Below the pieces are notes generated by a model that saw nothing but the letters and a program-made list of their open reading frames with translations, searched no databases and was not told the origin of the DNA. From NCBI GenBank assembly GCA_937873205.1, contig CALMVO010000134.1, positions 1 through 38,561 of the forward strand: DNA of 38,561 nt, given 5' to 3'. Shown in pieces: positions 16,326-21,026 of this stretch. Within the stretch, counting starts at the first letter, position 1, and each line of letters starts with the position of its first letter. This DNA comes from an uncultured Acetobacteraceae bacterium (GTDB lineage: Bacteria > Pseudomonadota > Alphaproteobacteria > Acetobacterales > Acetobacteraceae). Made by a program: the position numbers and the translations under genes.

Positions 16326-17432
16326 ATGGTCTCTCGGGTGGCGATCGTCGGCGCCGGCTGGTACGGCTGCCATCTCGGGAGCTCGCTGAAGGCGCTCGGC
16401 TTCGACGTCCGGGTCTTCGAGCAGCATCACCGGCCGCTGCACGAGGCCTCTGGCAACAACCAGTTCCGGCTGCACCTTGGCTTCCACTACCCGCGCCACC
16501 ACGGCACCCGGGTGCAGTCGCGCGACGGCTTCATGCGCTTCATGGAGCGCTATCCGCAGCTGAGCCGGGAGATCCCCGAGAACATCTACGCCGTGCCCAA
16601 ATCCGAGAGCCTGATCGATTTCGCGACCTATCGCCTGATCATGACCTCGACCGGCATCGAGTTCCGCGAGCAGACCGAGACCTCGATCCCGATCCGCGAG
16701 ATCGCCGGCCTGATGTTGACCGGCGAGCGGGTGCTGCTGATCGAGCAGTCGCGGCGCTTCTTCGCCGACCTGCTCGGCGACAGCCTGGTGCTGCGGCACC
16801 GTGTGACCTCGATCGAGGAGACGGACGACAGCGTGATGGTCGAGGGCGAGCCGTACGACCTGCTGATCGACGCCAGCTGGGGCCAGCAGCTTGGCATGCC
16901 GATGCCGTTCTTCTACGAGCCGACCATGCTGCTCTATTACGAGACCGATCACGCCTTCCCGGCGGTGACCTTCGTCGACGGCCCGCTCTGCTCAGTCTAT
17001 CCCACCGAAGACCCCAACATCTACACGCTGTCGAGCGTGCCGCATACGCCCCTGGCCCGGGTGCACGACGCGCGCGAGGCGCAGCGCATCCGCGACGGCG
17101 TGTCGTCGGAAACGGTGGCCGCCAAGGTGAGCGCCATGGAGGAGCAGGTGTCGCGCTACCTGCCGACCTTCCGGGAGAGCTTCCGCTTCGTGGGCCCGCA
17201 GCTGGCGATCAAGACGAAGCCAGTCGGCAACTTCGACGACCGCAGCTGCTCCGTGTTCCGCCGCGGCCGCGTCTTCCACGTCATGTCAGGTAAGATCGAC
17301 ACCATCTTCTTTGCCATGGAGCGCATCCTGGCCTTCGTCGAGAGCAGCCGCGAGCGCGGCTTCTCGCCGCTGGCCAGCCCGCTGCGCCGCGATATCGTCA
17401 CGCGCAGCCTGCAGACCCAGACACAGGGATAG
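16326..17432 (+). CDS. FAD-dependent oxidoreductase (DAO/amine-oxidase-like fold)
   Basis: A 368-residue flavoprotein-like enzyme. The N-terminus has a textbook Rossmann dinucleotide loop (VAIVGAGWYGCHLG, G9-x-G11-x-x-G14) and an acidic residue ending strand 2 (VFEQ). The motif NNQFRLHLGFHYPRHHGTR near residues 47-65 resembles one I associate with flavoproteins in surface-polysaccharide loci; the substrate is unknown. The C-terminal FRRGRVFHVMSGKIDTIF is consistent with the second FAD-contacting segment. It opens a compact four-gene unit: the next ATG is 8 bp after its stop. The ribosome-binding site is weak. Assignment to sugar or glycan metabolism rests on context. Confidence 0.75.
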   Translation: MVSRVAIVGAGWYGCHLGSSLKALGFDVRVFEQHHRPLHEASGNNQFRLHLGFHYPRHHGTRVQSRDGFMRFMERYPQLSREIPENIYAVPKSESLIDFATYRLIMTSTGIEFREQTETSIPIREIAGLMLTGERVLLIEQSRRFFADLLGDSLVLRHRVTSIEETDDSVMVEGEPYDLLIDASWGQQLGMPMPFFYEPTMLLYYETDHAFPAVTFVDGPLCSVYPTEDPNIYTLSSVPHTPLARVHDAREAQRIRDGVSSETVAAKVSAMEEQVSRYLPTFRESFRFVGPQLAIKTKPVGNFDDRSCSVFRRGRVFHVMSGKIDTIFFAMERILAFVESSRERGFSPLASPLRRDIVTRSLQTQTQG

Positions 17433-17440
17433 GAGCCGAC

Positions 17441-18211
17441 ATGACCGCACGCGCCCTGATCGGCCATACCGGCTTCGTCGGCTCGAACCTGCTGCGGCAG
17501 CAGGCGTTCGACCACCTTTACAACTCCGCCAGCATCGGTGAGATCGATGGCCGCCACTTCACCGACGTGGTCTGCGCCGGTGTTTCGGCCGTGAAATGGT
17601 GGGCGAACCAGAACCCGGCCGAGGACCTGGAGCGGATCCAGGGCCTGATCGCCCACCTCGACACCATCGCCGCCGACAACTTCACGCTGATCTCCACCGT
17701 CGACGTCTACGGCCACCCGATCGGCGTCAGCGAGGCCGACCAGCCGGCGCTGGATGGGCTGCACGCCTATGGCTCGAACCGCGCGATGCTGGAGCGCTGG
17801 GTGTCGGGCCGGTTCGCCGACCACCAGATCGTGCGCCTGCCGGCCCTGTTCGGAGCCGGGCTCAAGAAGAACGCGATCTACGACCTCATGCACGACAACC
17901 GCATCCAGGTGATCAACGGCGCCTCCTCGTTCCAGTGGTATCCGCTCGACCGCCTCACCGACGACCTGGCACTGGCGCACGACCGCCATCTGGGCGTGGT
18001 GAACCTCGCCACCGAGCCGGTGTCGATGGAGGAGATCCGCGCGCGGTTCTTCGAGGACAGCGTCATCGGCGCCGACGCCGCCCCGGTCGCGCATTACGAC
18101 ATGCGAACGATCCACGATGCGGAGTTCGGCGGCGCCGGCGGCTACGTGCTGGACCATGCCGGCGTGCTGGCGGCGATCGGGCGCTTCATCGAGGCGGAGC
18201 GTCCTTCGTGA
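17441..18211 (+). CDS. NAD-dependent epimerase/dehydratase-like (extended SDR) protein
   Basis: A 256-residue short SDR-type protein. The cofactor loop is GHTGFVGSN (G8-x-x-G11-x-x-G14). The central strand ends with FTLISTVDVYG (catalytic Ser/Thr position) and the helix that normally carries Tyr-x-x-x-Lys reads Y110-GSN-R114, so the catalytic Lys is replaced by Arg. The C-terminal substrate-binding part is present but short (about 320 is usual for sugar-nucleotide epimerases). AGGAG lies 6 bases before the ATG, and the stop overlaps the next start by 4 bases (GTGA). Family fit is good; activity may be altered or lost. Confidence 0.8.
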   Translation: MTARALIGHTGFVGSNLLRQQAFDHLYNSASIGEIDGRHFTDVVCAGVSAVKWWANQNPAEDLERIQGLIAHLDTIAADNFTLISTVDVYGHPIGVSEADQPALDGLHAYGSNRAMLERWVSGRFADHQIVRLPALFGAGLKKNAIYDLMHDNRIQVINGASSFQWYPLDRLTDDLALAHDRHLGVVNLATEPVSMEEIRARFFEDSVIGADAAPVAHYDMRTIHDAEFGGAGGYVLDHAGVLAAIGRFIEAERPS

Positions 18212-19029
18212 GGCGGCTCGGCGTCTCCAACCTCGCCTGGCCGGCGGAGGCGGAGGCGGCGGCCTTCGCGCTGCTGGCCGAACGCGGCGCCGACGGCGTC
18301 GAGGTGGCGCCGACCCGGATCGCACCCTGGGATGAGCTGACCCCGGCCAGGCTCGCCACCTTCCGCCGCGGCTGCGAGGCGGCCGGCCTCGAGACGAGCT
18401 CGCTGCAGGCGGTGTTCTTCGGCCGGCCCGAGGCGGCCCTGCTGGACGACGCGCCGCGGTTCGAGGCGATGTGCGAGCACACGCGCCGGCTGGCCGGGAT
18501 CGCCGAGGCGCTGGGCGCCCGAGTGGCGGTGTTCGGCGCGCCGAAGAGCCGGCTGCGCGGCGCGCTGGCCGAGCCCGACGCGATGGCGCTGGCCGCCGAC
18601 CGGCTGCGCGTTCTGGGCGACATCGCCGCCGCCGGCGGCCTCGCCTTCGGCATGGAGCCGGTGCCGCCGGTCTATGGCGCCGACTTCCTGAACCACGCGG
18701 CCGACATGATCGAGCTCGTGCGCCGTACCGGCCACCCCGCGATCCGTGCGCATCTCGACACCGCCTGCGTGACGCTGGGCGGCGACGATCCGGCCGCTTC
18801 GATCCACGCCGCCGCGCCGCTGCTCGCGCACTACCACATGGCCGAGCCGGAGCTGGGCCCGTTCGCGGCGCCGATCTGCGATCATGCCGCCGCCGGCCGC
18901 GCGCTGGACGAGGTCGGCTACGATGGCTGGGTGGTGATCGAGATGAGGCAGGGCGAGGGTGACGGCCTGGCCGCCGTGGCGACGGCGATCGGCTTCGCCC
19001 GCACCCACTACGTCACTGCCGCGATGTAA
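18208..19029 (+). CDS. Sugar phosphate isomerase/epimerase-like TIM-barrel protein
   Basis: A 273-residue protein starting at GTG 18208, which overlaps the preceding stop by 4 bases. It matches the xylose-isomerase-like TIM-barrel family (AP-endonuclease 2 superfamily). Likely metal ligands occur in order: Glu in FGMEPVPPVYG near residue 150, Asp in RAHLDTACVTLGG near 188, His in LAHYHMAEPE near 211, and Glu in WVVIEMRQGEG near 248. Such enzymes isomerise or epimerise keto sugars, inositol derivatives or hydroxy acids; the exact substrate is not evident. Tight coupling to the SDR-like gene suggests a common pathway. Confidence 0.82.
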   Translation: MRRLGVSNLAWPAEAEAAAFALLAERGADGVEVAPTRIAPWDELTPARLATFRRGCEAAGLETSSLQAVFFGRPEAALLDDAPRFEAMCEHTRRLAGIAEALGARVAVFGAPKSRLRGALAEPDAMALAADRLRVLGDIAAAGGLAFGMEPVPPVYGADFLNHAADMIELVRRTGHPAIRAHLDTACVTLGGDDPAASIHAAAPLLAHYHMAEPELGPFAAPICDHAAAGRALDEVGYDGWVVIEMRQGEGDGLAAVATAIGFARTHYVTAAM

Positions 19030-19037
19030 GGCCGGGG

Positions 19038-21026
19038 ATGTCGGACCTGCTCGGCCATGCGACCACCATCCCGGCGCCGAGATTGCGCGGCGCGGACCGG
19101 CGACGTCAGGAGCCCACGGCTCAGGCTGTCGATCTGCTGATCCAGGAGCCGCTGTTCCTCAAGGACGGCGCCCTGCATCTCCACCTCTGCGGACACGATC
19201 TGCCGCTGATGAACGCCGGCCAGCCGGTGACGGCGTTCCAGCCCGGGTGGCGCGCGCGTGCCCTGTTCACCGGCTTCGCGCCGCTGTTGCTGCTGGAGCT
19301 CGTGCACGACACCGGCGAGGAGGCGACCTGGTTTCTGGACTACCGCATGCAGCGCGTCGCCGGCACCATCGACCAACTGCCGCCGGACCTGCTGGAGCTG
19401 CTGACGCACAAGGCGACGGCGCTGCTGCTGGCGCTCATGCATCAGGTGCTCGAGGCGACGATGCCGGCGCTGGACGCAGCACTGGGCGGCTTCCTCGGGC
19501 TGAACGAGCCGGTCCGGCATGCGATCGCCCAGCTCTGCCACAAGAGCGTGGTGCGGCGGCCGGCGGTCTATCTGGTGCGGGACCTGATGCCGCACTCCCT
19601 GGTCTATCGCGGCCAGGACGGTGTGCTGCGCACGATCGATCAGGCGCTGCTCGCGGCCAGCCTGGCCGAGGACTGGCAGCGGCGCATCCCTGGCTTCGTG
19701 CGGTCGGGCACGCTGTCCTGGCCCGGCCCGGTCGACGGACGAGCGCTGATGGCTCAGGGGACGTTGCCGCTCGACGACTTCCACTACGCCTACCGCATCG
19801 TCGATCACCGCAACGCGCTCTCGTTCTTCGCGCTCGTCGGCAATCACCGCGCCGTCGTGCTCGGCCTGTGGTTCCCGGCCCAGGGCCTTCTCGTCGCGCA
19901 AGACGAGAAAGCCGGACACTTGGCCGGCTCGGTCCTGAACAACATCCAGTGGTGGTTCACGTCGCTGTCCGTGATGCGCGGCGGCGAGATGATCCCCTAC
20001 CTGGCACGCGGCGCGACCCGCTTCACCAGCGTCATGCGCGGGCCGCCCGGCGCCCATATCGGGCACCAGCTCTGGAACGAGCTGAGCGGCATCGAGCGGA
20101 TGGTGCGGGAGCATCCGGACGCGCTGCCGGACTGGCTGGTCTTGGACGCGGCGCGCGGCACGGAGTTCTATGGCCCGATCGACGAGCTGTTCGACGCGCT
20201 GCGGGGCAGGGTGGACCGGTCCGTCGGCGGCTATGCCGAACTGGTGCGGCGCTGCTTCGCCGAGCGGCTGTTCCTGCTGCGCGTGACCGACGACCTGGTG
20301 ACGGAGAGCCTGCGGGACCGCCTGCTGGCGCGGGTCGCGGCCTCGTCGGAGGCGCGCCGGGTGGCGGCGTCGCTGCCCGTGCCGCGGGGCCTGGTCCTGA
20401 TGGTCGGCCTCAGGGTTGAGAACCGTACCCTAGTCGAGCTCGGCGAGTTCCTGACCCATCTCGTGGCCTTCGTCGCCGGCACCCACCCCGGCGCCACCAT
20501 CGTCTTCGACGGCCATAACGTGTCGGCGACGGACGGCGGCGCGATTGCCAGCCACGGCGAGCGGCACGACGGACCGTCGATGACCGGGATCGAACGCGCC
20601 CTCGTCGACGCGCTGCGCCAGGCCTTCCAGGGCGTCGCCGTCACCATCCGGGACACCATCGGCGAGCCGCTGGCGAACAGCCTCGCCTGGAGTGCGGCAA
20701 GCGACGCCTTCGTCTCGATCTGGGGCGCCAGCCTCGCCAAGTACCGCTGGGTCTGCAACAAGCCCGGCTACATCCTGAGCGGCCGGATGAACCTGCTGCA
20801 CCGCGGCGACCTGCACATCTACGACTCGCCCCGCTACGTCGAGCGCCCGTCTCCGGTGCGCTTTGCCAATCCCGACTTGGTCACCGACCATCCTGATGCA
20901 CCACAGCTGGTGCCGGTGGCACCTGGCAACTGGGCCCTCTACAATTTCGACGTCGATCGCGCGGGTATCCTGGCCGAGATCGGGGAGACGATCGACGCGG
21001 TCCTGGCGGGCCGGGCCGTCGCCTGA
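19038..21026 (+). CDS. Unrecognised 662-residue protein, possible glycosyltransferase
   Basis: I do not recognise this protein as a whole. No signal peptide or clear membrane span is visible. The first 400 residues contain distinctive blocks (VRRPAVYLVRDLMPHSLVY near 175; NNIQWWFTSLSVMRGGEMIP near 305; WNELSGIERM near 350). From about 455 to 580 the pattern of a hydrophobic strand ending in an acidic patch (GATIVFDGHN near 487) and SAASDAFVSIWGASLAKYRW then NKPGYIL near 555-580 resembles the nucleotide-sugar half of GT-B glycosyltransferases such as GT61, where a GxHGA-like segment occurs. That is inference by eye. It starts 8 bp after the isomerase stop and ends the four-gene unit. High GC and codon use match its neighbours, so there is no sign of recent transfer. 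Confidence 0.6.
   Translation: MSDLLGHATTIPAPRLRGADRRRQEPTAQAVDLLIQEPLFLKDGALHLHLCGHDLPLMNAGQPVTAFQPGWRARALFTGFAPLLLLELVHDTGEEATWFLDYRMQRVAGTIDQLPPDLLELLTHKATALLLALMHQVLEATMPALDAALGGFLGLNEPVRHAIAQLCHKSVVRRPAVYLVRDLMPHSLVYRGQDGVLRTIDQALLAASLAEDWQRRIPGFVRSGTLSWPGPVDGRALMAQGTLPLDDFHYAYRIVDHRNALSFFALVGNHRAVVLGLWFPAQGLLVAQDEKAGHLAGSVLNNIQWWFTSLSVMRGGEMIPYLARGATRFTSVMRGPPGAHIGHQLWNELSGIERMVREHPDALPDWLVLDAARGTEFYGPIDELFDALRGRVDRSVGGYAELVRRCFAERLFLLRVTDDLVTESLRDRLLARVAASSEARRVAASLPVPRGLVLMVGLRVENRTLVELGEFLTHLVAFVAGTHPGATIVFDGHNVSATDGGAIASHGERHDGPSMTGIERALVDALRQAFQGVAVTIRDTIGEPLANSLAWSAASDAFVSIWGASLAKYRWVCNKPGYILSGRMNLLHRGDLHIYDSPRYVERPSPVRFANPDLVTDHPDAPQLVPVAPGNWALYNFDVDRAGILAEIGETIDAVLAGRAVA

Follow-up and report, generated by a model that had tools for sequence, protein, structure and literature searches.

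The four-gene locus

Here, we describe four consecutive genes, designated A, B, C, and D, in a 38,561-nucleotide stretch of DNA from an uncultured Acetobacteraceae bacterium (NCBI GenBank assembly GCA_937873205.1, contig CALMVO010000134.1; the whole stretch is hereafter referred to as the window). An earlier reading of the sequence (hereafter, the original prediction) had proposed that these genes form a compact unit for making and transferring a modified sugar, separated from one another by 8, -4, and 8 bp and with core genes on either side. Both the spacing and the placement held. The genes are four open reading frames on the same strand (Table 1), the GTG start of C overlaps the stop of B, and third-position GC is 0.91-0.94 for all four. 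Upstream of A lie dnaG, rpoD, a GNAT-like gene, and a TonB-like gene, and rpsF, rpsR, and rplI lie downstream of D (the names of these neighbors were assigned by reading their sequences). The genome, which comprises 3.73 Mb in 155 contigs, is of the Acetobacteraceae type. Proteins A, B, C, and D had no matches in PHROGs.

Table 1. Positions and predicted products of the four genes in the window
Gene	Predicted product	Position	Strand	Length and basis
A	DAO-family flavin adenine dinucleotide (FAD)-dependent oxidoreductase, predicted sugar oxidase	16326-17432	+	368 aa; Pfam DAO, fold matches
B	Atypical extended short-chain dehydrogenase/reductase (SDR) / epimerase-like reductase, predicted	17441-18211	+	256 aa; Pfam Epimerase
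C	Xylose-isomerase-like TIM barrel with ketose 3-epimerase metal site	18208-19029	+	273 aa, GTG start; Pfam AP_endonuc_2
D	Predicted cytoplasmic GT-B glycosyltransferase	19038-21026	+	662 aa; AlphaFold model

Predicted enzymes A, B, and C

Protein A matches the Pfam family DAO (PF01266) at 29.4 bits against a gathering cutoff of 27.9, and its AlphaFold model (predicted local distance difference test score [pLDDT], 84) has PA4991, glycine oxidase, and sarcosine oxidase as its top Foldseek matches. Protein B marginally matches Epimerase (PF01370; 22.0 bits against a gathering cutoff of 20.9). It lacks the catalytic Y-x3-K of extended SDRs and instead has Y110-x3-R114, as do all 84 of its homologues, in which S85-T86 is likewise invariant. 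Protein C matches AP_endonuc_2 (PF01261 superfamily) at 87 bits, and its nearest solved relatives are D-tagatose/D-psicose 3-epimerases. It shares with the ketose 3-epimerases an aligned metal quartet, E150, D184, H210, and E245, the residues of which are kept in 65, 65, 64, and 65 of 65 homologues, respectively. However, it differs from these enzymes and from inosose dehydratase in that it falls below the NCBIfam cutoff for every characterized member (best score, 37.7 bits against 300). An epimerase or dehydratase activity of C is a prediction from its sequence.

The A-B-C core occurs in two genomic arrangements

The B alignment was scanned against 84,980 species genomes, yielding 444 relatives; the best 80 were kept, and the genes surrounding B were clustered. 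This analysis uncovered that B, C, and an A homologue recur as a neighborhood in ~80 loci from many phyla, and that they do so in two arrangements. Arrangement 1, as found in the window, comprises 37 loci, mostly from alphaproteobacteria, and carries the window's subtype of A, whose signature is NNQFRLHLGFHYPR. Arrangement 2 comprises 39 loci from proteobacteria, Firmicutes, Planctomycetes, Verrucomicrobia, and others, and carries a second A subtype. The active-site residues of A, B, and C are kept across both arrangements, and the motif NQxRxHxGxHYxR is present in 83 of 84 A sequences, both subtypes included. The neighbors of the core loci are glycosyltransferases, rml genes, and ATP-binding cassette (ABC) exporters, rather than sugar importers or kinases. 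We consider it very probable that the A-B-C core is a rare-sugar biosynthesis set.

The two arrangements differ in the genes that accompany the core. Arrangement 2 is usually found with a GT2 protein bearing two C-terminal transmembrane (TM) segments and a second, soluble GT2 protein, and often with an SMR/EamA or GtrA protein, and also a polytopic protein; the GT2 and SMR families occur in none of the 37 arrangement-1 loci. The Gtr systems for serotype-converting glucosylation and the Arn systems for aminoarabinose likewise combine a GT2 of the polyprenyl-phosphate type with a small flippase (SMR or GtrA) and a polytopic transferase but, unlike arrangement 2, do not have its three-enzyme sugar-making core. 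The original prediction had remarked that no nucleotidyltransferase, flippase, or polymerase genes lay nearby. Indeed, the Gtr/Arn-type polyprenyl-phosphate glycosyltransferase, flippase, and polytopic transferase are absent from the window, yet such genes accompany the core elsewhere, in its second arrangement.

D homologues, by contrast, were found in 24 of the 37 arrangement-1 loci and in none of the 39 arrangement-2 loci (per genome, 21 of 29 versus 0 of 35). Across 147 related genomes, A and full-length D occurred together in 10, A alone in 1, D alone in 1, and neither in 135 (p ~1e-13), a value that is weakened by the relatedness of the genomes; the count by genus (n = 143), with both in 6, A alone in 1, and D alone in 1, still stands (p ~5e-9). 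Thus, the co-occurrence of the four families, rarity of which would have spoken against the original prediction, is strong.

Plasmids from Psychrobacter, Azospirillum, Sagittula, and Roseobacter also carry arrangement 2. The Psychrobacter plasmid pA22P4 (10.8 kb, with mobilization genes) carries B, C, an SMR transporter, A, a GT2 gene, and a further protein with TM-like segments (L147:2336-8624). On the Escherichia coli plasmid pCUPF09A (L152:6833-14092), an arrangement-2 module directly follows phage tail and lysozyme genes and has integrase remnants downstream; its first glycosyltransferase gene is frameshifted, and the module looks like a phage-borne seroconversion cassette.

Conservation of the core and turnover of D within the genus

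Five genomes of the genus were examined, that of the window and four others, and the chromosomal position of A-B-C is the same in each of them; the genus also includes the cultured Acetobacteraceae bacterium KSS8. In the four other genomes, identity to the window proteins is 91-92% for A, 78-81% for B, and 74-78% for C, so that A is as conserved as rpoD (90-91%). Two of them have D at the locus, at 49-54% identity; the other two lack it there but carry ~8 D-family matches elsewhere. This pattern, with A-B-C conserved and D diverged or absent, indicates that the sugar-making part is stable and that the transferase turns over. We rejected D as a fixed member of the operon, given its absence from the locus in two of the five genomes. 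The four-gene unit of the original prediction is thereby reduced to a conserved A-B-C core, with D a fast-turning-over member of a paralogous family.

Predicted structure and family of protein D

The 662-residue protein D had no match in Pfam or NCBIfam, nor in the PDB by sequence, whether it was searched as a single query or as a 40-member profile. Its AlphaFold model (pLDDT, 92.7; predicted template modeling score [pTM], 0.89) revealed a GT-B glycosyltransferase domain at residues ~328-662, which gives a fold to a protein that the original prediction had been unable to place. This domain resembles WaaF (Z 14.8; 3.8 Å over 251 residues), WaaC (Z 13.6), and POMGNT2 (Z 11.9; 5.3 Å over 280 residues), and POMGNT2 is also the top Foldseek match of D (E ~1e-5); all these fold matches rest on the C-terminal half, and residues 1-325 are barely covered. 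The window protein contains the invariant motifs HxGHxxWN, VENRT (R459/R463), DGHN, and WGAxLAKYRW, of which HxGH, VENR, DG, and GAxxAK are invariant in a 40-sequence alignment of the family. No TM-like segments were seen in D, and a cytoplasmic glycosyltransferase is therefore the natural reading. Judging from the model, D is in all likelihood a glycosyltransferase.

The C-terminal half of D shares the GT-B fold with the GT9 heptosyltransferases (WaaC, WaaF, and TibC) and with GT61 (POMGNT2, PF04577), but D differs from both in having no significant sequence match to them, an extra N-terminal region of ~320 residues, and other conserved motifs. Six of the 40 family members weakly match GT61 (PF04577; best E 0.002), whereas the window protein does not. 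Since comparisons of the D profile with single GT61- or GT9-annotated proteins were not significant (in the GT61 comparison, the WGAxLAKYRW loop is the part that aligned), D was not filed in either family.

The family is large, with at least seven other D homologues in the window's genome and ~8 matches per genome across the genus. The N-terminal region also occurs as a stand-alone protein of ~370 residues (L015:3417-4532; short matches in G013, G042, G388, G409, and G424) and is apparently duplicated in paralogues of ~800 residues. One D paralogue is clustered with 3-deoxy-D-manno-octulosonate (KDO)-type biosynthesis genes, a GT61 protein, and a GH4-domain protein (L012:3887-18746), which suggests a capsule or lipopolysaccharide role for it, and another directly follows the gene for a TonB-dependent receptor (L009:7184-11379). 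Genome G001 has a second and more distant D paralogue directly upstream of A, so that D genes flank A-B-C on both sides (L052:4562-6619).

The core in Escherichia coli and the O162 branch

In E. coli, arrangement 2 is located directly after gnd, between gndA and ugd, in genomes with wzm/wzt of the O89/O101/O162 family. The O162 O-antigen consists of O101 plus a side branch of 4-deoxy-D-arabino-hexose (PMC13168486). In that paper, which cites Liu et al. 2020, the genes directly downstream of gnd are hypothesized to add the O162 branch and to have been inactivated by a transposon in O101; the Onovel32 polysaccharide is described in the paper as having an O101-type backbone, with no branch mentioned (PMC13168486). 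Among complete E. coli genomes, we found a near-identical module in five (serotypes not assigned), two of which have it intact and three of which match only from 13 bases into the first gene. The annotation of one of these three shows, at the first gene, an IS4 element into which an IS3-family element has inserted. The module is absent from the other 309 E. coli genomes with related wzm/wzt. One assembly, E. coli SY3626_hybrid (L153), has a gnd and his region that looks unlike that of E. coli; this region may come from another enterobacterium, or the assembly may be mislabeled.

The window and the E. coli O162-type set downstream of gnd have a homologous A-B-C core in common, and the invariant residues of B and C are identical in the two. 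They differ in that the E. coli set includes two GT2-type proteins, an SMR/EamA protein, and a polytopic protein, none of which is present in the window, where D is found instead. In a quick tree of B, the E. coli sequence groups with arrangement-2 sequences inside one B family.

A proposed route and its alternatives

Taken together, the shared core, the association with the E. coli O162 branch, and the GT-B fold of D lead us to propose that A, B, and C together produce a rare deoxy-sugar in activated form, with 4-deoxy-arabino-hexose or a close analogue as the most likely product, and that D acts in the cytoplasm to transfer it to an acceptor; we regard this reading as reasonably likely. Biosynthesis and transfer of a modified sugar, as originally predicted, thus gain support from the co-occurrence of the four families and from the fold of D. 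We think it probable that the product of arrangement 2 is 4-deoxy-arabino-hexose, and that the window's genes make the same sugar is plausible, if somewhat doubtful; we found no published glycan structure from the window's genus.

The precursor would be an already activated housekeeping sugar. In the order that we envisage, A would first oxidize C2, giving a 2-keto sugar with the ketone next to a CHOH group. C would then remove the adjacent proton via an enediolate and expel the 4-hydroxyl; inosose dehydratase, which belongs to the same superfamily as C, carries out a comparable enediolate formation and hydroxyl loss. Finally, B, perhaps with the reduced flavin of A, would reduce the resulting 2,3-diketone. 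To turn a gluco or galacto precursor into 4-deoxy-D-arabino-hexose, the 4-hydroxyl must be lost and C2 and C3 inverted, and a route in which both of these centers are erased and reset would explain how an arabino product could arise from either precursor. D, as a cytoplasmic GT-B enzyme, may then take the sugar from a soluble, activated donor and attach it to a glycan at the cell surface or to another acceptor. In arrangement 2, the place of D would be taken by polyprenyl-phosphate GT2 enzymes together with a small flippase and a polytopic transferase, all fed by the same core. Because a soluble GT-B enzyme is associated with arrangement 1 and GT2 enzymes with arrangement 2, the simplest common donor would be a nucleotide sugar, in which case no nucleotidyltransferase would be needed nearby.

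Several observations weigh against this proposal. The A proteins of the two arrangements are only ~24% identical, and their products could therefore differ. Nor is D an obligate partner: two of the five genomes in the genus lack it at the locus, and it is missing in 8 of the 29 genomes with arrangement 1. The link to 4-deoxy-arabino-hexose comes from one serogroup, concerns arrangement 2, and follows an already published hypothesis. In addition, we know of no nucleotide-sugar substrates for DAO flavoenzymes or for the TIM-barrel family of C, and the activities of all four proteins are predictions from sequences and structure models.

The divergence of A also fits a scenario in which the arrangement-1 genes make some other rare sugar (deoxy-, keto-, or epimerized) and have only the chemistry of their folds in common with the E. 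coli O162 module, as do the completely different transfer genes of the two arrangements and the B tree, which largely separates them. However, that tree needs just three label changes, with arrangement-2 sequences not all on one side, and the catalytic residues of B and C and the NQxRxHxGxHYxR motif of A are the same in both arrangements; a different sugar is possible but appears rather unlikely to us. The main challenge to a nucleotide-sugar donor is that A, B, and C act on a polyprenyl-phosphate-linked sugar, with D using a lipid-linked donor or doing something else. Arrangement 2, with its polyprenyl-phosphate-type GT2 enzymes and flippase-like protein, lends itself to this idea, and there is a precedent in mycobacterial DprE1/DprE2, a flavoenzyme-plus-SDR pair that acts on a lipid-linked (polyprenyl-phosphate) sugar. 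Nevertheless, the lack of GT2 and SMR families at every arrangement-1 locus and the resemblance of D to soluble nucleotide-sugar-dependent GT-B enzymes make a lipid-linked substrate unlikely. It is also conceivable that the oxidase, isomerase, and reductase degrade a sugar or cyclitol and that D is an unrelated neighbor, given that DAO oxidases and IolE/IolI-like TIM barrels are frequent in catabolic operons. Yet the core loci adjoin glycosyltransferases, rml genes, and ABC exporters instead of importers and kinases, D co-occurs with A (p ~1e-13), and the E. coli copy sits in the O-antigen region, all of which renders a catabolic role very improbable.

Significance

4-Deoxy-D-arabino-hexose has been reported from O-antigens of E. 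coli O162, Citrobacter, and Franconibacter; Citrobacter braakii PCM 1531 and Franconibacter pulveris G3872 are producers. In the accessible literature, we found no biosynthetic route to this sugar, and one paper terms its mode of synthesis unclear. With the conserved A-B-C core, such a route could be tested using three purified proteins. Others had previously hypothesized the gene assignment in E. coli; new here are the D family and the finding that the core is shared and occurs in a second arrangement. D defines a glycosyltransferase family for which there is no Pfam or NCBIfam model, and its strong, specific genomic partner, A-B-C, suggests what its donor may be. More tentatively, A-B-C might represent a general bacterial route to 4-deoxyhexoses, by flavin oxidation, metal-dependent dehydration, and atypical-SDR reduction, that serves two unrelated transfer machineries, and D a new glycosyltransferase family that, at ~8 copies per genome, could place one rare donor onto many acceptors.

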